Part shown: in pieces, positions 1,407 to 8,195 of the stretch
Layout: each line of letters opens with the position of its first letter
Numbering within the stretch: the stretch's first letter is position 1
Assembly (NCBI GenBank): GCA_030646595.1
Contig: JAUSKS010000218.1
Coordinates: 1 to 14,397 of the forward strand
Reading direction: 5' to 3'
From: Gallionellaceae bacterium
Lineage (GTDB): Bacteria; Pseudomonadota; Gammaproteobacteria; Burkholderiales; Gallionellaceae
DNA length: 14,397 bases
The notes under the pieces: model-generated
What the model was told of the DNA's origin: nothing
The model's input: only the letters and a program-made list of their open reading frames with translations
Databases searched by the model: none
Program-made: the position numbers and the translations under genes

Positions 1407-1778
1407 TTAAACGGCAACTTTGCGCGCGGCCAGTTTTTCCTTGATCCGTGCCGATTTGCCGGAACGATCACGCAGATAATACAGCTTGGCGCGACGTACA
1501 TCGCCACGGCGTTTCAGCTCTATGCTGGCAATCGAAGGAGAGTAAGTCTGGAAGGTGCGCTCCACGCCTTCGCCGGAAGACACCTTGCGCACGATGAAGG
1601 ATGAGTTCAACCCAGCATTACGCTTGGCAATGACTACGCCTTCAAAGGCCTGCGCCCGCTTGCGCTCGCCTTCGACTACATTCACGTTAACCACCACGGT
1701 ATCGCCAGGGGCGAAATTGGGAACCACTTTACCCAGGCGGGCGATTTCTTCTTGCTCCAGTATTGCGATCAGATTCAT
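1407..1778 (-). CDS. rplS: 50S ribosomal protein L19 (bL19)
   Basis: A 123-residue ribosomal protein at the 30S-50S interface. It opens with [17 protein letters not shown] and carries the family segments [24 protein letters not shown] and the C-terminal [25 protein letters not shown]. The length is typical. The frame stays open upstream to 1919, but that extension is the trmD region read in another frame. The true start is ATG at 1778, with AGAGGA upstream, and it overlaps the trmD stop as ATGA, which suggests translational coupling. It is the last gene of the rpsP-rimM-trmD-rplS operon and is followed by a hairpin terminator. Confidence 0.98.
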
Positions 1779-2545
1779 TTTGTTTCCTCTTGTTGTACGG
1801 ATGCTTGTTCCTGCTGGTACTCTGCCAGTAGCCGAGCTTCCTCTTTTGTTAACTGGCGTTGTGCCAGCAAATCCGGGCGGCGTTGCCAAGTACGTCCCAG
1901 CGACTGCTTCAACCGCCACTTCTCTATTTCGGCGTGGTGTCCCGATAACAACACTTGCGGGATACCTTCACCTTGAAAAACTTCCGGACGCGTGTAGTGC
2001 GGACAATCCAGCAAGCCATGCACAAATGAATCCTGCTGTGCTGAATCGGCATCGCCCAACACATCGGGCAATTGCCGCACTAAACTGTCTATCAACACCA
2101 TCGCTGCCAACTCGCCACCGGATAATACATAGTCGCCAATGGAAAATTCTTCATCCACTTGCTGCCGCAACAGGCGCTCATCCACGCCCTCATAGCGGCT
2201 GGCCAATAAAATCCAGGCTTCATCACGCGCCAGCAATTCCTGCACGACTGTGTGCGTCAATGGTCGGCCTTGTGGCGACAAATGAATCACACAACTTTTT
2301 TTTACTCCAGCTTGCGCTTGCTTGACTGCGCTGATGGTCCGTTGCAATGGCTCTGCCAGCATCACCATGCCGGGGCCACCGCCATAAGGGCGATCATCCA
2401 CACTGCGATGATTATCCGTAGTGAAATCACGCGGATTCCACGTCTGCAACACAAACTTTCCTTGCTCCGCTGCGCGCCGCGTGATGCCATATTGCGTAAT
2501 CGCCTCGAACATCTCCGGAAACAAGGTAATAACATCGAAGCGCAT
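1775..2545 (-). CDS. trmD: tRNA (guanine-N1-)-methyltransferase TrmD
   Basis: A 256-residue SPOUT methyltransferase that makes m1G37 in tRNAs reading CNN and other codons, which prevents +1 frameshifting. It starts [13 protein letters not shown]. The AdoMet-binding trefoil-knot segments are present: [12 protein letters not shown] (about residues 51-62), [11 protein letters not shown] (115-125) and [14 protein letters not shown] (136-149). The conserved QDSF...[16 protein letters not shown] segment (171-192) contains the presumed catalytic Asp. The C-terminal tRNA-binding domain carries the HHAEIEKWR motif. The length is normal. It starts 3 bases after rimM ends and its stop overlaps the rplS start by 4 bases. 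Confidence 0.98.
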
Positions 2546-2548
2546 GAT

Positions 2549-3088
2549 TCAGTGCTTATCAGCCCAATCGGCCGACCAATCGACGCGTATTGTTTTTTCC
2601 GCCAAATTCACTTGCTGGATGGCGCTGGCAATGAAGGGAATCAGCACCTCACCGCCTTTACCCCGCACACACAGCACCTGATTCGCGCCGGTGTCCATCA
2701 GGTTATCCACGATCCCCAGGCTTGCGCCAGCCACATTGACCACTTGCATGCCGATCAAATCGGCCCAGTAATATTCATCTTCCGTTTGTTGCGGCAGACT
2801 GCTGCGCGGCACGGCCACCAACAAACCTTTATATTTTTCGGCAGCGCTGCGATCATTGCAGCCCGGAAATTTGGCGATCAAACCTTTGCTCTGCACCGCA
2901 AATTTTTCCACACTGATTTCGCGCCACGGATGCTTCTCATCTCCCAACCACCACACCGGATAATCAGCCAGACTATCCACGGTTTCAGTGTAGGTTTTAA
3001 TTGCCACCCAGCCGAGTATGCCCTGCGCCGCTGCCACCCGCCCCATGATAATCATGGGGTCTGCTTGCTCAGACTTTTGCTGCGCCAC
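2549..3088 (-). CDS. rimM: Ribosome maturation factor RimM
   Basis: A 179-residue 16S rRNA processing factor that binds ribosomal protein S19 and helps mature the 30S head. The N-terminal beta-barrel domain begins at [21 protein letters not shown] (the family's G-x-V/I...G-I-x-G-W pattern). The PRC-barrel domain follows with [29 protein letters not shown] and the closing VLIPFI and I-x-V-D-W segments. The GTG at 3088 overlaps the 3' end of rpsP by 20 bases; an internal ATG at 3055 is an alternative that would remove the overlap. Family members usually carry a short polar leader before the first strand, so I keep the GTG. Translation is probably coupled to rpsP and to trmD, 3 bases downstream. 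Confidence 0.96.
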
Positions 3089-3344
3089 CCGAACCCTTGG
3101 CTGCGGTACTGGCGCGCTTGACCAGCTTGGCCACGGCGTCGCTCAGTTGCGCGCCTTTTTCCTGCCAATGTGCTACGCGATCCAGTTGGATGCGCATACC
3201 ATCCGGGCCTTCCGGAGTAACCGGATTATAGAAGCCGATGCGTTCAATGAAGCGGCCATCACGGCGATTGCGTGAATCAGCAACCACTACATTAAAGAAT
3301 GGACGATTCTTGGAGCCACCGCGAGCAAAGCGAATAATAACCAT
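3069..3344 (-). CDS. rpsP: 30S ribosomal protein S16 (bS16)
   Basis: A 91-residue ribosomal protein of the 30S body that also helps 16S rRNA assembly. It has the family start [16 protein letters not shown], then [22 protein letters not shown] and [22 protein letters not shown] two codons upstream (3350) is open, but AGG lies 1 base from that TTG and 7 bases from the ATG at 3344, so the ATG is chosen; it also matches the usual N-terminus. The tail ([13 protein letters not shown]) is an alanine/glycine-rich extension common in beta- and gammaproteobacteria. It is first in the operon, behind the promoter at 3387-3416. Confidence 0.97.
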
Positions 3345-3386
3345 AATCAAACCTGTTTTTCGTTAGCAAATGCCAAAAGGGCGCGA

Positions 3387-3416
3387 ATTCTACGACAATT
3401 TGGGGGGTTATGGCAA
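3387..3416 (-). promoter_or_regulatory. Sigma-70-type promoter of the rpsP operon
   Basis: On the minus strand, TTGCCA (3411-3416) and TAGAAT (3387-3392) are separated by 18 bases. The -10 box is followed by a GC-rich stretch typical of growth-controlled ribosomal promoters, and the leader to the rpsP ATG is only about 35 bases. It lies between the upstream transporter-heme gene and rpsP, so the ribosomal operon does not depend on upstream transcription. Confidence 0.7.
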
Positions 3417-3451
3417 GGAAGATATTTAGGCGGCCAAGCCAAGGTCATGGC

Positions 3452-4897
3452 TTAAAGAGAATTTAAAAACTGATAAAGCGCCTGTTGCTCGTTTTCATCG
3501 AGTTTCATAAAACGCTGCTGGATAATTTCTGCTTCCCCACCATGCGCGATTATGGCTGCACGTAATGAAGTGGCACGCCCATCGTGCAGATAGCGCACCC
3601 GCAGACCCAGCCCGCGCAGCGGGGTGGTGCGCCAGTCACGGCCACGCGCGTCGCCCTGTTCAAACTTGTCATCCAGTGCAGGCCCCATATCATGCAACAA
3701 TAAATCGGAGTACAAATAAATCTGTCGATTTTCTGCGGGCAAACTGGCCACATGACATTTTCCGCAGCCGATTGTATCGAACAATTGTTGGCCCAAGGCT
3801 ACCCCTGGTGGGGTATTGATCTTGGTCGTGTAAGGCGCGGTGAGGTGGTCAGAGAGCAGCATTTCATCCAGCGATCCCACACCATTCCGCACCAGGGCAT
3901 AGCCTATGCCAATGGCAAATACGAAACCTGCCAGTGCTGCCAGCAAAGGCTTTACGATCCAGCCATGAGTATGTGATTTCCCGATATGGGTTTCCAAACC
4001 GAAGGCAACCATGACCATGGTGATTAGAAATACATCAACTTGGCTCAGCGCACTCAGCACTGGGGCAGGCAAAGCTAGCAGCGAATTGATGATGACCACT
4101 GCCAAAAATCCAAACACAAATAGCGGCAATGGAATACGACTATGGGTATGTTGCCCGTCGCTGCGGCGCAGCCATGCGCCGAGCAGAAAAAGCCCGGGTA
4201 CCATCAGCACTACTTTGCTGAGCTTGACTACAGTTGCGGTGATGCCTGCCAGATCGGACACGGCGTAGCCAGCGCCGATGACTTGGGCCAATTCATAAAT
4301 GGTAGCACCAGTAAATACTCCGAAATCAGCGGGATCAAACTCTGGCGGATAACCCAGCGCATAAGCCAGCGGATAAAAAAACAGTGCCACCGTACTGAGC
4401 AAGGTAATGATGGTCACTGCCAGGCTGACCTGTTGCGGCCGCGCATGCAGCAAGGTGGCAGTGGCCAAAATAGCGGACGCTCCACAAATGGAACTGCCTG
4501 CTGCCAGCAATAAAGCCAAGGTACGGTCAATACGGAAAATTTTCTGCGCTGACCAGGTAATGAATATAAAGGTGCTGGCCATCACTATCGCGGCAACTGC
4601 GATGGGACCAAAACCTATGCCCGATAAATCCTGCCAGGTAACGCGAAAGCCGAGCAGAATAACAGCCAGGCGGAGCAACCATTTGATAGTGAATTGCAGC
4701 CCGGGCTGTAGCATTTGCGGACGCCCGAATACATTACCAATGAATAAACCCAGCAACACTGCGATCAACAACTGGCTTTTGCTCAGGCTACCGCCCAGTC
4801 CAGTAGAAATAGCCACCGCCATACCGGCAAGCAAGGCGGCAATAGCAATTCCGGGCAGACGCTTGATGAAAGTTATAGGAGGAATGGTGGGTATCAT
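3452..4897 (-). CDS. YeiH/UPF0324 family membrane transporter fused to the C-terminal heme half of a di-heme (DHOR/DUF1111) oxidoreductase
   Basis: 481 residues in two parts. Residues 1-338 are a polytopic membrane protein with about ten hydrophobic segments and YeiH/UPF0324 hallmarks (LLGLFIGNVFG, LLGFRVTWQDL, GSSICGASAI, FGVFTGATIYELAQVIGAGY); the family is annotated as putative sulfate exporters on thin evidence. After a linker (339-362) comes a c-type heme domain: GQQLFDTIGCGKCH (CxxCH at 378-382), YSDLLLHDMGPALDD (M404 a possible axial ligand), WRTTPLRGLGLR, YLHDGRA and HGGEA. These are the conserved blocks of the second heme domain of DHOR/DUF1111 di-heme proteins. The first heme domain is missing here but ends the upstream gene. 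The ATG at 4897 overlaps that gene's TGA (ATGA), so translation is probably coupled. Heme attachment requires the C-terminus in the periplasm. No signal peptide precedes the heme domain. The domain calls are firm; the function is inference. Confidence 0.85.
   Translation of the reverse strand: MIPTIPPITFIKRLPGIAIAALLAGMAVAISTGLGGSLSKSQLLIAVLLGLFIGNVFGRPQMLQPGLQFTIKWLLRLAVILLGFRVTWQDLSGIGFGPIAVAAIVMASTFIFITWSAQKIFRIDRTLALLLAAGSSICGASAILATATLLHARPQQVSLAVTIITLLSTVALFFYPLAYALGYPPEFDPADFGVFTGATIYELAQVIGAGYAVSDLAGITATVVKLSKVVLMVPGLFLLGAWLRRSDGQHTHSRIPLPLFVFGFLAVVIINSLLALPAPVLSALSQVDVFLITMVMVAFGLETHIGKSHTHGWIVKPLLAALAGFVFAIGIGYALVRNGVGSLDEMLLSDHLTAPYTTKINTPPGVALGQQLFDTIGCGKCHVASLPAENRQIYLYSDLLLHDMGPALDDKFEQGDARGRDWRTTPLRGLGLRVRYLHDGRATSLRAAIIAHGGEAEIIQQRFMKLDENEQQALYQFLNSL
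3752..3766 (-). other. Heme c attachment site CGKCH (second heme)
   Basis: Codons for Cys-Gly-Lys-Cys-His, residues 378-382 of the transporter-heme fusion, in the context LFDTIGCGKCHVASLP. This is the only CxxCH in that protein and corresponds to the second heme of DHOR/DUF1111 proteins. Confidence 0.9.
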
Positions 4898-7800
4898 GGT
4901 ACAGCAATGGGTGCCAGTGCCAAGGCACGCAGATAATTCTTGAGGGCATGAATCAAGGTACCATCATCATCCAGTGAGCCCTTGGAGTCAGTCTTCTTGC
5001 CCGTTTGTTGCGTGTGCTGCTTGAGTGCCTCTGCTACGGGGTTGGTGATGCCAAGCTCGTTGTCAAGCGCGCTGGCAATCATGTCTTGCAGCCCCGCAAT
5101 ATCGGCTTTCCAGCCATATTTTCCGATACGGCGTACGCCTGCAGAATCGGTAATCATATTAACCCGCCCATGCACACCGTCGCCTTTGTCCACTGCTTGC
5201 GCGCTTATCACTTCATCACTGATTTCATCCAGATCAGCCATACCATACAGACTGGGCGCTAAACGAATCGAGGTGATATTGGCTTGTGGCGGAAAACCTG
5301 CTGGGGACGAAATGAAGCCTGCGCCAGCCAAAAAATGTTTGTGCGCAATCGGCCCGCCGCGATCAACCAACGTATCAAATCGGCCATTGCTGGGGTCAAA
5401 ATGGGCAATGCGTACCACAAAGTCCTCATCGTTAATCCCCATGCCACCCAGGGTGGGATATCGGTGACAGCTGGCGCAGGATGAACCGTTGAATAATGGC
5501 CCCAGACCATGCGCCGCATCCAGCGCGGTATTGAATAGCGTCTTGCCTAGTTTCGCGTCTGGCGTGTCCAGCTTTTCTACCACCCAGTAATTAGGTCGAT
5601 CTGCCAATGGGCCTTCACGGTCAAAAGCACTCACTTCGATGAGAGCACCGGGAGATTGTGGAAACTGCGGCAAGGTTCCTTGCAGTGTAATCCATATTTT
5701 CCGGCCATCTTCCGACACCGCCAGCCCTGCCACCCGACCATCTTCTGCGCGTGACAAATTTGGAATGCGCAAGGCAGCACGGGCCACGACTACACCCTCG
5801 CGATTAATGCGCAACAGTGTGGCATTAGCCCGGTTCAGCACATAAAGATCCGACCGACCAGCCAAGGTAGTGTGGCTGGCAAAACGGGAATTGGCAATTT
5901 CCGGCATGGTGGCTGCGAGGTCCACAGGATAGGCAAATTCGCTATGCTGCAAATACTGAATTTTGCGTAATACAAAATGTTTGCCATCGTCACCCAGATG
6001 CAGCGCAGCAATACGGTTACGCGGGCCATCCACCACATACAGGATACGTTCCGGCGTCCACTCAAATGCAGCCCCGATTAATCCCGCACTTTCCGCGCTG
6101 GATAGCGCAGGATTAAAAGTATTCACTGCGGAGACTGTACCCGGCGGGGCCAGACCATCCACCCCATCGCGCACATGAACTTGCACGATGCTGCCATCGG
6201 CTTTGATTACCGCGAATACAGCAGGCCCTGTCCCATCCGGCGATGCGCCTAGGAATACCGTACCCAATGCGCCACCAAACAAATCACCCTGAGAGTATTG
6301 CGTTGTCTGGCGGTTGGTAACTGATCCGCTAAATACTCCACCTGCAAAATCGCTGGGGGCGTGTGCCAAGGGTTCACCAGTCGGATCCAGCACAGTGCTA
6401 CTGCCTGCACCCGCCATCCCTGAAGGCGCATTGGCAACCCAAGGGCGGCCAAAAGCGTTATTGATGGAAATATAGCGCGGATTAGAAATAGCAGGCTCAT
6501 GCGCGGTCTGTGCTTGAGGATTGTTTATTTGGTTAAGAAACTGCGGGGTTTGTGCAGCGAATAACTGCACATTGCCATTGAATATACTTTGCTGGCCGTC
6601 CTCAGTGGCAAAATCCGCAGGAATGACCAAGGCATCACTTGCTTTGGTGTTGATTGACAATACCGCCCCGGAACTTTGATTGGCCACCCCCAAGGGTGCA
6701 CCAAAGTTTGACAAACTCGCTACCAAGACGCGCTCCGGATCCAGTATTTTGCCGGGCCGGGTACGCATGCGAAACGCAGGATTGTTGCGCATTGGGCCGC
6801 CGGGATGAAAAAAACCAACTTGCCGCACACCTGCGGCACCGGGGATGCCCACCGCGACCACACGCGCCGACAACTCATAGCTGGGTACAGCTCGCTGCGA
6901 CAAAAGTGCAGGCGGAATTTTATCTGCGCTTAACAAATGGGCTGATACAACTGCCACACCGGGTATGCGAATTTTTGTTCGTAATTTTTGCACAAGCTCA
7001 CGTTCAAATCCCGCCGGATGCGCAGTGATATCCGCCAGACTATCTCTTGCCAGCACGGCTTCCTGTGCGCTACGGTAAATTGCCGGTGTCAAAAATTCAC
7101 GTTGCAATGTGCGCACGTCTCCCACCTCGGCCACCAGTCGGGCGGCCTCATTGGGATTTATTTGCATGACCAAGCGCAACTCTAATTGCGCGCGCTGGCC
7201 TTGCACCGTAACAGGGATCGCTGCACCCATTACTTCATCGGGCAGAAAGGTATCGTTGCTGGGCAACCGTTCCAGAATTCTGCCTTGGGTATCGCGCACG
7301 ATAGCCACTTCATTGTGGCGATTGCTGTTGCTGTATAGCAAAGACTGAGCACGGGTAGGGATCAGCGTAGCCTGAAATATATTGGGATTGAGGTTATATA
7401 ACCCCGGCAGTAAAGGCGTCTTCCAAATACCTGCACACCCTTGTGCAACCAGGGTAGTGGTAGCCGTTGTTTTATTGGCTGCGCTGGCGCATGTAGCTAA
7501 GGAATTGACATTAGATTTGACCACCGCCACAAAACCGGCAGGAACATCCAGCACTGGATAATAAGTGACATCGAACAGGTAACGATTTATGGCATATACG
7601 CCGGGAGTGAGCACGGTAAGCTGCACACCTTTTTGGCCACCGTGGGCCAAAAAATAGGCGGCATCAAGCATCTTAGCTGCCTGGCCTTGCGGCCATGCTG
7701 GTGCAAACATTTCTGAGGCTGCAAGTGGTGCCCCATCTTTGGCGCTCAACACTGCAAACTGGCCACTGGGCACTGATACCACAGGGAAGTCTTCTACTGC

Positions 7801-8103
7801 ATAAAGGATTTTAAGAAAAGGAATGAAATGGAAACCCGGCCCGATCACCTCAAGCTGCGGCCCATTTTGTCCTGCTTTTGCCAGAATAGCACCGGGCGGC
7901 AGAGATGCTCCAAAGTAAACACGCTGCAAGTGCCCCACCTGTCCCGGCAGCACCACATAGCACGATGCCCATAACAGCAGCAACAGGGCCACCCCACCGC
8001 CCACTATCATACTGCGTCGCGCCTGTGACCTTGATTGTGCGTATAGCTTGGGCAGCCATACACCGGCCAGAATGCACAGTAGCGCCAATATTATTACGTA
8101 CAA
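4894..8103 (-). CDS. Membrane-anchored SPFH/Band 7 - beta-propeller - cytochrome c protein carrying the N-terminal heme half of a di-heme (DHOR/DUF1111) oxidoreductase
   Basis: About 1069 residues. Two hydrophobic segments (YVIILALLCILAGVW and IVGGGVALLLLLWASCYVV) flank a basic loop, which predicts both ends in the periplasm. Three repeat-like blocks beginning PGFHFI, PGVYAI and PGLYNL follow, then an SPFH/Band 7 core (IPVTVQGQRAQLELRL to LLSADKIPPALL). About 400 residues rich in short strands (ERVLVASLSNFGAPL, AVFAVIKADGSIVQ, RILYVVDGPRNRI, LYVLNRANATLLRI, GLAVSEDGRKIWI) look like a beta-propeller. The last 218 residues match the first half of DHOR/DUF1111: KTLFNTALDAAHGLGPLFNG, CASCH, HGRVN, IGKYGWKADIAGLQDM and NELGITNP, ending in a helix and LRALALAP. 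The frame is open to GTG 8184, but that start lies just before the degP terminator and has no ribosome site. TTG 8103, with a GGGGG run 6-7 bases upstream, is preferred; ATG 8010 is also possible. The function is unknown. Confidence 0.82.
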   Translation of the reverse strand: MYVIILALLCILAGVWLPKLYAQSRSQARRSMIVGGGVALLLLLWASCYVVLPGQVGHLQRVYFGASLPPGAILAKAGQNGPQLEVIGPGFHFIPFLKILYAVEDFPVVSVPSGQFAVLSAKDGAPLAASEMFAPAWPQGQAAKMLDAAYFLAHGGQKGVQLTVLTPGVYAINRYLFDVTYYPVLDVPAGFVAVVKSNVNSLATCASAANKTTATTTLVAQGCAGIWKTPLLPGLYNLNPNIFQATLIPTRAQSLLYSNSNRHNEVAIVRDTQGRILERLPSNDTFLPDEVMGAAIPVTVQGQRAQLELRLVMQINPNEAARLVAEVGDVRTLQREFLTPAIYRSAQEAVLARDSLADITAHPAGFERELVQKLRTKIRIPGVAVVSAHLLSADKIPPALLSQRAVPSYELSARVVAVGIPGAAGVRQVGFFHPGGPMRNNPAFRMRTRPGKILDPERVLVASLSNFGAPLGVANQSSGAVLSINTKASDALVIPADFATEDGQQSIFNGNVQLFAAQTPQFLNQINNPQAQTAHEPAISNPRYISINNAFGRPWVANAPSGMAGAGSSTVLDPTGEPLAHAPSDFAGGVFSGSVTNRQTTQYSQGDLFGGALGTVFLGASPDGTGPAVFAVIKADGSIVQVHVRDGVDGLAPPGTVSAVNTFNPALSSAESAGLIGAAFEWTPERILYVVDGPRNRIAALHLGDDGKHFVLRKIQYLQHSEFAYPVDLAATMPEIANSRFASHTTLAGRSDLYVLNRANATLLRINREGVVVARAALRIPNLSRAEDGRVAGLAVSEDGRKIWITLQGTLPQFPQSPGALIEVSAFDREGPLADRPNYWVVEKLDTPDAKLGKTLFNTALDAAHGLGPLFNGSSCASCHRYPTLGGMGINDEDFVVRIAHFDPSNGRFDTLVDRGGPIAHKHFLAGAGFISSPAGFPPQANITSIRLAPSLYGMADLDEISDEVISAQAVDKGDGVHGRVNMITDSAGVRRIGKYGWKADIAGLQDMIASALDNELGITNPVAEALKQHTQQTGKKTDSKGSLDDDGTLIHALKNYLRALALAPIAVP
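5464..5478 (-). other. Heme c attachment site CASCH (first heme)
   Basis: Codons for Cys-Ala-Ser-Cys-His in the context GPLFNGSSCASCHRYPTLGG, near the C-terminal end of the SPFH-propeller protein. This is its only CxxCH and corresponds to the first heme of DHOR/DUF1111 proteins. Confidence 0.9.
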
Positions 8104-8141
8104 TATTTTCCCCCGCTGGTTGACCAACTTTGTTACTGGCC

Positions 8142-8173
8142 AAAAAAGTATCCCGCCAGCAGGGGCGGGATAC
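8142..8173 (-). terminator. Rho-independent terminator of the rpoE-rseA-rseB-degP operon
   Basis: On the minus strand, a perfect 10-base-pair stem (GTATCCCGCC at 8173-8164 with GGCGGGATAC at 8157-8148), a 6-base loop and six T (8147-8142). It begins 22 bases after the degP stop. It is a strong intrinsic terminator, so the following SPFH gene should need its own promoter or read-through. Confidence 0.93.
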
Positions 8174-8195
8174 GCTGCTACCACTTATTCAGAAA

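Follow-up and report, generated by a model that had tools for sequence, protein, structure and literature searches.

Why should the two halves of a di-heme enzyme of the DHOR family be encoded by two overlapping genes, with a complete transporter at the break between them, and do the two products still form one enzyme? This question is raised by genes A and B (Table 1), which reside on a stretch of 14,397 nucleotides from a Gallionellaceae bacterium, here termed the window.

Domain Architecture of Genes A and B

The coordinates and domain contents that a sequence-only reading had assigned to both open reading frames are in agreement with their translations and with Pfam analysis; the SPFH domain and the propeller of gene A, its probable start codon and the wide occurrence of the architecture go beyond that reading. 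For gene A, a longer reading frame is present (4894-8184 on the minus strand, GTG start at 8184, 1096 aa), but as this GTG sits just before an intrinsic terminator, the TTG at 8103 is probably the true start. The SPFH domain (residues 256-417 of the 1096-aa frame) scores above the cut-off for PF01145 and, among the matches listed, is present in three of 120 proteins containing the first half (half-1 proteins), the window included. With regard to the propeller, Foldseek, the results of which were drawn on for the propeller and YeiH parts, matched the corresponding part of a weak model for an unsplit homologue with the propellers of SMP30, Drp35 and DFPase. The first-heme half (heme1) features the motifs CASCH, HGRVN, IGKYGWKAD and NELGITNP and has LRALALAPIAVP as its C-terminal end; the DHOR profile PF06537 matches here at residues 885-908 (profile positions 54-77) with 18.3 bits, below the cut-off of 22. 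A membrane anchor in the window protein and signal-like N-termini in its relatives suggest that the gene A product is exported.

Table 1. Features of the gene A/gene B locus; positions refer to the window.
Feature	Position	Strand	Basis
Gene B, YeiH transporter + second-heme half (481 aa)	3452..4897	-	ORF call, Pfam domains
heme2, second-heme half of DHOR enzyme	3455..3814	-	PF06537 profile 363-499
heme2 attachment motif CGKCH	3752..3766	-	Sequence motif
YeiH/PSE transporter domain (PF03601)	3941..4852	-	248.8 bits
ATGA overlap, stop of A/start of B	4894..4897	-	Sequence
Gene A, membrane anchor + SPFH + beta-propeller + first-heme half	4894..8103	-	Probable CDS of 1069 aa with TTG start, like P0121 in the database
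heme1, first-heme half of DHOR enzyme	4909..5568	-	HMM, trees
Trp of GWK	5110..5112	-	Aligned with cytochrome c peroxidase Trp
heme1 attachment motif CASCH	5464..5478	-	Sequence motif
Beta-propeller region of gene A	5590..6882	-	HMM census; Foldseek
SPFH/Band_7 domain of gene A	6934..7419	-	PF01145, 33.1 bits (cut-off 23.6)
Intrinsic terminator in the mucD-gene A interval	8148..8173	-	-19.5 kcal/mol, z -3.17

Gene B encodes a full PF03601 domain (residues 16-319, profile positions 2-302 of 304, cut-off 24.5 bits), while its score for the subfamily TIGR00698 (204.1 bits) falls below the cut-off of 232.6. The YeiH part of the model for one homologous locus (L005) retrieved NHA2 (E 5.8e-4) and CitS (E 1.6e-3 and weaker) in Foldseek. 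The PF06537 match at residues 366-481 (90.3 bits, cut-off 22) is limited to profile positions 363-499 of 499, and PF03601 and PF06537 occur together in all 120 proteins among the matches listed for the gene B search (window included). According to a crude charge check, a K/R-rich loop precedes the last helix, which fits a periplasmic C-terminus. The C-terminus of Salmonella YeiH is likewise predicted to be periplasmic (PMC12880088), and a topology of nine helices with the N-terminus inside is given (PMC8396727).

The Junction Is Conserved Across Genomes

In the DHOR alignment, intact homologues that combine propeller, heme1 and heme2 in a single chain run without a break across the point at which the window proteins are divided, and this point corresponds to the inter-heme linker. 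The earlier description of two reciprocal DHOR halves, in order and coupled by ATGA, with YeiH at the break, is thus borne out. The A+B pair possesses two c-type CxxCH sites in the order of the DHOR family, CASCH in A and CGKCH in B. Among the matches listed for gene A (window included), 110 of 120 half-1 proteins stop before heme2 and ten are unsplit. The two-gene arrangement is a widespread, conserved family that occurs in Betaproteobacteria/Burkholderiales, Mesorhizobium and Nostoc; Roseateles and Mesorhizobium muleiense (L007) are among the carriers.

Decay, a frameshift or an assembly artefact affecting one DHOR gene might be suspected from the fact that the split was found in the window's own genome but in none of 60 relatives, and from individual copies with a stop inside half 1 (L012) or a change of frame (L005). 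On the other hand, the same junction recurs in many genomes and metagenomes, and both heme sites are retained throughout: the CxxCH residues are present in 130 of 130 split half-1 rows for heme1 and in 140 of 140 rows for heme2 (rows not all distinct in either case). This explanation was therefore rejected as highly improbable. As the longest contigs for P0002 and P0122 (89% and 86% identical) are equal in size (5489) and the junction recurs elsewhere in the genome records, the split is not an accident of the window assembly.

Pairing of the Two Halves

The propeller-heme1 half is located directly upstream of the fusion in all 20 loci for which upstream DNA is available, one more locus being cut by a contig end, and a four-base overlap (ATGA/GTGA) characterizes 17 of 19 separate-frame pairs elsewhere. 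Twenty-five half-1/half-2 pairs (window included) match in the size of the longest contig, compared with 0.6 expected. In a survey of 81 genomes of the Mesorhizobium muleiense genus, half 1 was sought at E<=1e-40, and in many genomes the scoring covered a subset of the first-look candidates for either half; within this scope, both halves were present in the same seven genomes (Fisher p 3e-10, kinship ignored), and neither was found without its partner. Ten split genomes likewise contained no spare lone second half, the sole exception being an 84-aa fragment that G070 has at the end of one contig, with a cut fusion on another. Neither survey showed a half reused independently with a different partner. 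Two of the conditions that the sequence-only reading had named as refuting it, halves occurring apart and a split unique to one assembly, thus fail. Two of the split genomes (G063 and G064) also have a complete DHOR and a third (G068) a match below the cut-off.

Standalone YeiH was present in none of the seven split genomes of the Mesorhizobium muleiense genus vs. 63 of the 74 others (p 9e-6, kinship ignored). Judged from these sequences, fused and ordinary YeiH are mutually exclusive in the one genus tested. Ordinary YeiH as a stepping stone beside unsplit enzymes was not encountered in the flanking DNA examined, and a YeiH match elsewhere in the genome (five of six unsplit genomes vs. six of 14 control genomes) is indistinguishable from background. 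Pfam scans of 26 neighboring ORFs from six split loci yielded no shared operon partners, and conserved sulfur genes beside the pair were likewise absent among the 26 ORFs; the scans also covered four ORFs beside one unsplit locus.

Descent, Covariation and Conservation

Quick trees, with unsplit DHORs serving as the outgroup for heme1 and heme2, placed the split form in one clade for heme1 (SH-aLRT 99), heme2 (98) and YeiH (99). Both halves share descent with unsplit DHOR members, while the fused YeiH clade is separate from the 19 standalone YeiH proteins sampled. The single clade recovered for each part, together with the adjacency of the halves and their co-occurrence in the same genomes, suggests that one fission, with the transporter at the break, probably produced an arrangement that has moved as a unit ever since. 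Its inheritance as a unit in several bacterial groups in turn makes assembly of the enzyme on the transporter probable.

Distance partial correlations for 33 of 45 pairs, close duplicates left out, were strongest between propeller and YeiH (0.52); the value for heme1 and heme2 (0.28) was lower than that for heme1 and YeiH (0.47). The covariation of propeller and YeiH would suit a redox-gated transporter, in which YeiH is opened or driven by a di-heme unit that detects or uses an oxidant, e.g., peroxide, the unit regulating the anion's passage rather than converting the anion. Such a function would also conform with the Pfam entry, which labels DHOR a putative peroxidase, and with the mutual exclusion of fused and ordinary YeiH, by which transport seems to be the function they share. 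We nevertheless regard it as improbable, since to our knowledge no redox sensor of comparable size is attached to a transporter and since a propeller of about 430 residues points to substrate binding or catalysis.

While 34 of 36 heme2 columns conserved in unsplit proteins are also retained in the split form, this holds true for 36 of 56 heme1 columns, and the losses include two Cys, an Arg and an Asp. By this comparison, the heme1 half has changed relative to the unsplit form. The Trp of the GWK motif is present in 99% of the 130 split rows and in 100% of 17 unsplit rows; the Trp of cytochrome c peroxidase with which it aligns lies between the two hemes. The profile of the unsplit enzyme aligns weakly with cytochrome c peroxidase 3o5c (E 3.7e-5) over positions 90-290, across the break; the match spans the end of heme1 and heme2, and the score is -3.3 bits for the segment that holds the first CxxCH. 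In the structure model of a natural single-frame version, block pLDDT values ranged from 25 to 47 in heme1 and from 35 to 72 in heme2; in that of the unsplit reference (18 rows), pLDDT was mostly <60 in the heme part. In the alignment behind the single-frame model (A5), the YeiH part was well aligned, but about a quarter of heme1 strayed into YeiH/heme2 columns in ten of 16 half-1 rows.

The 20 lost heme1 columns, the low confidence of the models in both heme parts, which gave no predicted interface, and a heme1-heme2 covariation that is not the strongest would all be compatible with two separate mono-heme proteins. Heme2 would then cap YeiH as an electron-transfer module, with A as a free periplasmic propeller cytochrome in passing contact and the old two-heme site gone. 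The strict pairing and adjacency of the halves, the single clade found for both and the persistence of the peroxidase-aligned Trp render this reading unlikely.

Proposed Mechanism

Taken together, A and B are likely to be two subunits of one propeller-DHOR di-heme enzyme that reassembles at the periplasmic exit of a YeiH-type exporter and perhaps acts on sulfite. The di-heme enzyme would have been divided at the inter-heme linker and a YeiH-type transporter fused ahead of the second half. With YeiH crossing the inner membrane, its periplasmic C-terminus would place heme2 at the outer mouth of the transporter, where the gene A product could dock its heme1 domain onto heme2. The conserved Trp would then lie between the two c-hemes, which would form one redox unit as in cytochrome c peroxidase/MauG, and the overlapping stop and start codons may favor matched synthesis of A and B. 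The anion that YeiH is proposed to export, most likely sulfite, would be oxidized or otherwise handled by the propeller/di-heme unit, with electrons passing to periplasmic carriers. Counting against this reading are the altered heme1 half, the limited extent of the peroxidase match, the very low confidence of both models in the heme domains, the modest heme1-heme2 covariation and, for the substrate, the lack of conserved sulfur genes among the 26 ORFs.

Sulfite as substrate is a guess by analogy with YeiH, which published studies link to sulfite (PMC12880088, PMC12423496) and which is needed for sulfite resistance in Salmonella. More tentatively, the active site may be completed only on the transporter: with one half of the catalytic di-heme unit mounted at the outer mouth of the exporter itself, an anion such as sulfite would be oxidized on leaving the cell. 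If true, catalysis would here be coupled to export, through the insertion of a transporter into the middle of an enzyme gene. Fusions usually unite whole proteins, whereas here one enzyme is cut between its two redox centers, with a whole transporter at the cut and the halves still together. We know of no DHOR protein that oxidizes sulfite. The arrangement offers a testable way to connect sulfite export with a large di-heme family.

Comparison With Known Systems

A literature search, the reach of which excluded most subscription papers and bioRxiv preprints, found no description of this split. The large di-heme family bears the name of a peroxidase, and no substrate is shown in the text consulted (PMC3143127). 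The closest counterpart is the propeller-bearing unsplit subgroup of DHOR/DUF1111 proteins (P0170, P0162 and L024 from Calidithermus), which the split forms adjoin in the trees of both halves and which has the same propeller, heme1 and heme2 in the same order as A+B. The unsplit enzymes consist of one chain, whereas here two chains occur with the transporter between the halves, and the two Cys conserved in unsplit DHOR are missing. With YeiH/Putative Sulfate Exporter proteins (PF03601, TIGR00698), gene B shares the full transporter domain but differs by its C-terminal heme domain. Di-heme cytochrome c peroxidase and MauG are not known to possess a propeller or a transporter; the alignment with the profile of the unsplit enzyme begins at the inter-heme Trp of 3o5c. 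Sulfite dehydrogenases of the SorAB type, with their cytochrome c subunit, are molybdenum enzymes and are not known to be attached to an exporter. Provided that the substrate proposed here is right, they would share with A+B the task of oxidizing sulfite in the periplasm.

Gene pair in the window

The two halves of a di-heme oxidoreductase (DHOR/DUF1111, PF06537) are encoded by two overlapping minus-strand genes with the stop of gene A and the start of gene B in a common ATGA and, in agreement with the sequence-only reading, a YeiH transporter at the break: gene B matches PF03601 at 248.8 bits and PF06537 at 90.3 bits, the latter over profile positions 363-499 of 499. Gene A has a hydrophobic N-terminal anchor and probably starts at TTG 8103, as does its database counterpart P0121, since its longer GTG start sits directly ahead of the strong terminator after mucD. 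The SPFH/Band_7 domain, perhaps a membrane scaffold, is present in three of the 120 proteins listed from the half-1 search (P0121, which is the window's protein, and database proteins P0122 and P0123) and is a gain of the first chain in the window's lineage. The window's own genome (about 84% complete) yielded neither a second PF06537 match nor a YeiH besides gene B.

Features of the gene pair and its upstream flank in the window
Feature	Position	Strand	Remarks
Gene A (ORF)	8184-4894	-	Anchor, SPFH/Band_7, beta-propeller, first-heme half of DHOR/DUF1111
SPFH/Band_7 domain of gene A	6934-7419		Fused to propeller-heme1 protein
Gene B	4897-3452	-	YeiH transporter, then second-heme half
Strong intrinsic terminator	8148-8173		Follows rpoE-rseA-rseB-mucD; just past gene A's longer GTG start

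Occurrence and pairing of the two halves

Among 8000 candidates scored, the gene B search returned 1711 proteins at E<=0.001, and all 120 listed matches, window included, combined PF03601 with PF06537. Residues 600-1096 of gene A gave 244 matches; of the 120 listed, again with the window, 107 exhibited the propeller-heme1 architecture and 10 were unsplit propeller-heme1-heme2 proteins of 760-808 aa. Longest contigs of identical length linked 25 half-1/half-2 pairs, including that of the window, vs. 0.6 expected with jittered lengths.

A scan of genome contigs, from which 80 of 92 loci were retained, revealed the YeiH-heme2 fusion in 21 loci (HMM census) from Mesorhizobium, Betaproteobacteria/Burkholderiales, an alphaproteobacterial MAG and Nostoc, so that the split is not peculiar to one assembly. 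The propeller-heme1 half lies immediately upstream in all 20 loci with upstream DNA, the remaining one (L020) being cut by a contig end. ATGA or GTGA overlaps join 17 of 19 separate-frame pairs, while the others have a 3-base gap (L017) or a longer overlap (L019). At a further locus, L005:5667-9380, a frame change close to the end of half 1 creates a single open frame of 1237 codons covering both halves and YeiH, either a natural fusion or an error. At least one copy is not intact, as a stop codon interrupts the half-1 propeller in Mesorhizobium mediterraneum (L012:6486-6487) through decay or sequencing error. Pfam scans of 26 neighboring ORFs at six split loci revealed no gene common to these loci. 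At L002:4043-9392, the pair adjoins trmD as in the window (1775-8184), in opposite orientation; an integration site near rpsP-rimM-trmD common to both is possible.

The proposed co-occurrence was borne out in the genus of Mesorhizobium muleiense (81 genomes, evenly drawn from a larger group): half 2 occurred in seven genomes and half 1 (E<=1e-40) adjoined it in the very same seven, the sole further match there being one complete DHOR (Fisher p = 3e-10, kinship ignored). None of these seven contained a standalone YeiH, vs. a strong match in 63 of the 74 non-split genomes (p = 9e-6, kinship likewise ignored; the Mesorhizobium copies form one close clade). The other 11 had no YeiH among the matches listed, one of them (G120) having a second match beyond those. 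This exclusion, together with the fused gene being the sole YeiH match in 7 of 10 split genomes, indicates that the fused protein may substitute for YeiH in function.

Descent of the split form

In unsplit homologues the heme1 helix continues directly into the heme2 motif GxxLFxxxGCxxCH, which places the break in the inter-heme linker, exactly where the family had been claimed to run straight on. In the heme trees, 20 rows represented the split form (the window plus 19 loci), alongside 17 unsplit propeller rows and 25 DHOR-labelled rows; 27 of the 80 loci, L020 and L021 among them, were excluded for too short a heme piece, as were proteins P0200 and P0206. In these quick trees without bootstrap, the split form was monophyletic for heme1 (SH-aLRT 99, with long branches for the window, L017 and L019) and heme2 (SH-aLRT 98), and unsplit propeller proteins were nearest to it in both. 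Rooting on unsplit DHORs makes the split the derived state, although this outgroup is impure: the protein of L026, which bears the DHOR label owing to truncation by the contig start, groups with the unsplit propeller rows. The 34 rows of fused YeiH formed one clade vs. 19 standalone YeiH sampled (SH-aLRT 99). A single fission/fusion event is the simplest account of these sequences. In none of 60 genomes related to that of the window, 18 of which belong to its genus, was the fusion seen, and its patchy distribution suggests transfer of the pair.

Reassembly, topology and proposed function

Heme domains were unusable in the two predicted structures, partly on account of shallow alignments with 10 of 16 half-1 rows misplaced in part. 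Reassembly of the halves is probable, as judged from pairing, descent and conservation rather than a structural model. Partial correlations of distances over 33 half-1/half-2 pairs were 0.28 for heme1-heme2, 0.47 for heme1-YeiH, 0.52 for propeller-YeiH and 0.11 for YeiH-heme2, though the last two domains share one chain; this fits a general A-B interaction not specific to the hemes.

Attachment of c-hemes takes place outside the cytoplasm. Signal-peptide-like N-termini were recognized by eye in five of six SPFH-less half-1 proteins. A crude test of the YeiH part, based on a loop rich in K/R that precedes its final hydrophobic stretch, places the C-terminus outside, in agreement with published predictions: 9 helices for one form of the YeiH family and 11 for the other, both N-in (PMC8396727), and, in YeiH of Salmonella, a C-terminus located in the periplasm (PMC12880088).

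Taken from sequence, the architecture is real and conserved, namely a single di-heme enzyme divided into two coupled chains, the break being occupied by a transporter; the literature searched yielded no description of it. Most likely, the enzyme would assemble at the outer mouth of the YeiH exporter and serve in redox handling of the exported anion. By analogy with YeiH alone, we infer that sulfite may be the substrate of the split system.

Conservation of heme sites and comparison with cytochrome c peroxidase

CxxCH is kept in 130/130 half-1 and 140/140 half-2 rows, sets that are partly redundant and each contain the window twice. Split rows retain 34 of the 36 heme2 columns that are at least 90% conserved across 17 unsplit rows and only 36 of 56 such heme1 columns, those lost including two Cys, one Arg and one Asp. 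The Cys pair conserved in unsplit propeller-DHORs (residues 539 and 643 in the unsplit homologue P0170), possibly a disulfide, is absent from all 130 half-1 rows.

The alignment of the unsplit-enzyme profile to positions 90-290 of cytochrome c peroxidase 3o5c (E 3.7e-5) starts where heme1 ends, spans the break and continues through heme2 to its end; the profile stretch holding the first CxxCH obtains no score. The Trp of GWK, present in 99% of the split rows and 100% of the unsplit ones, aligns with a peroxidase Trp positioned between the two hemes.
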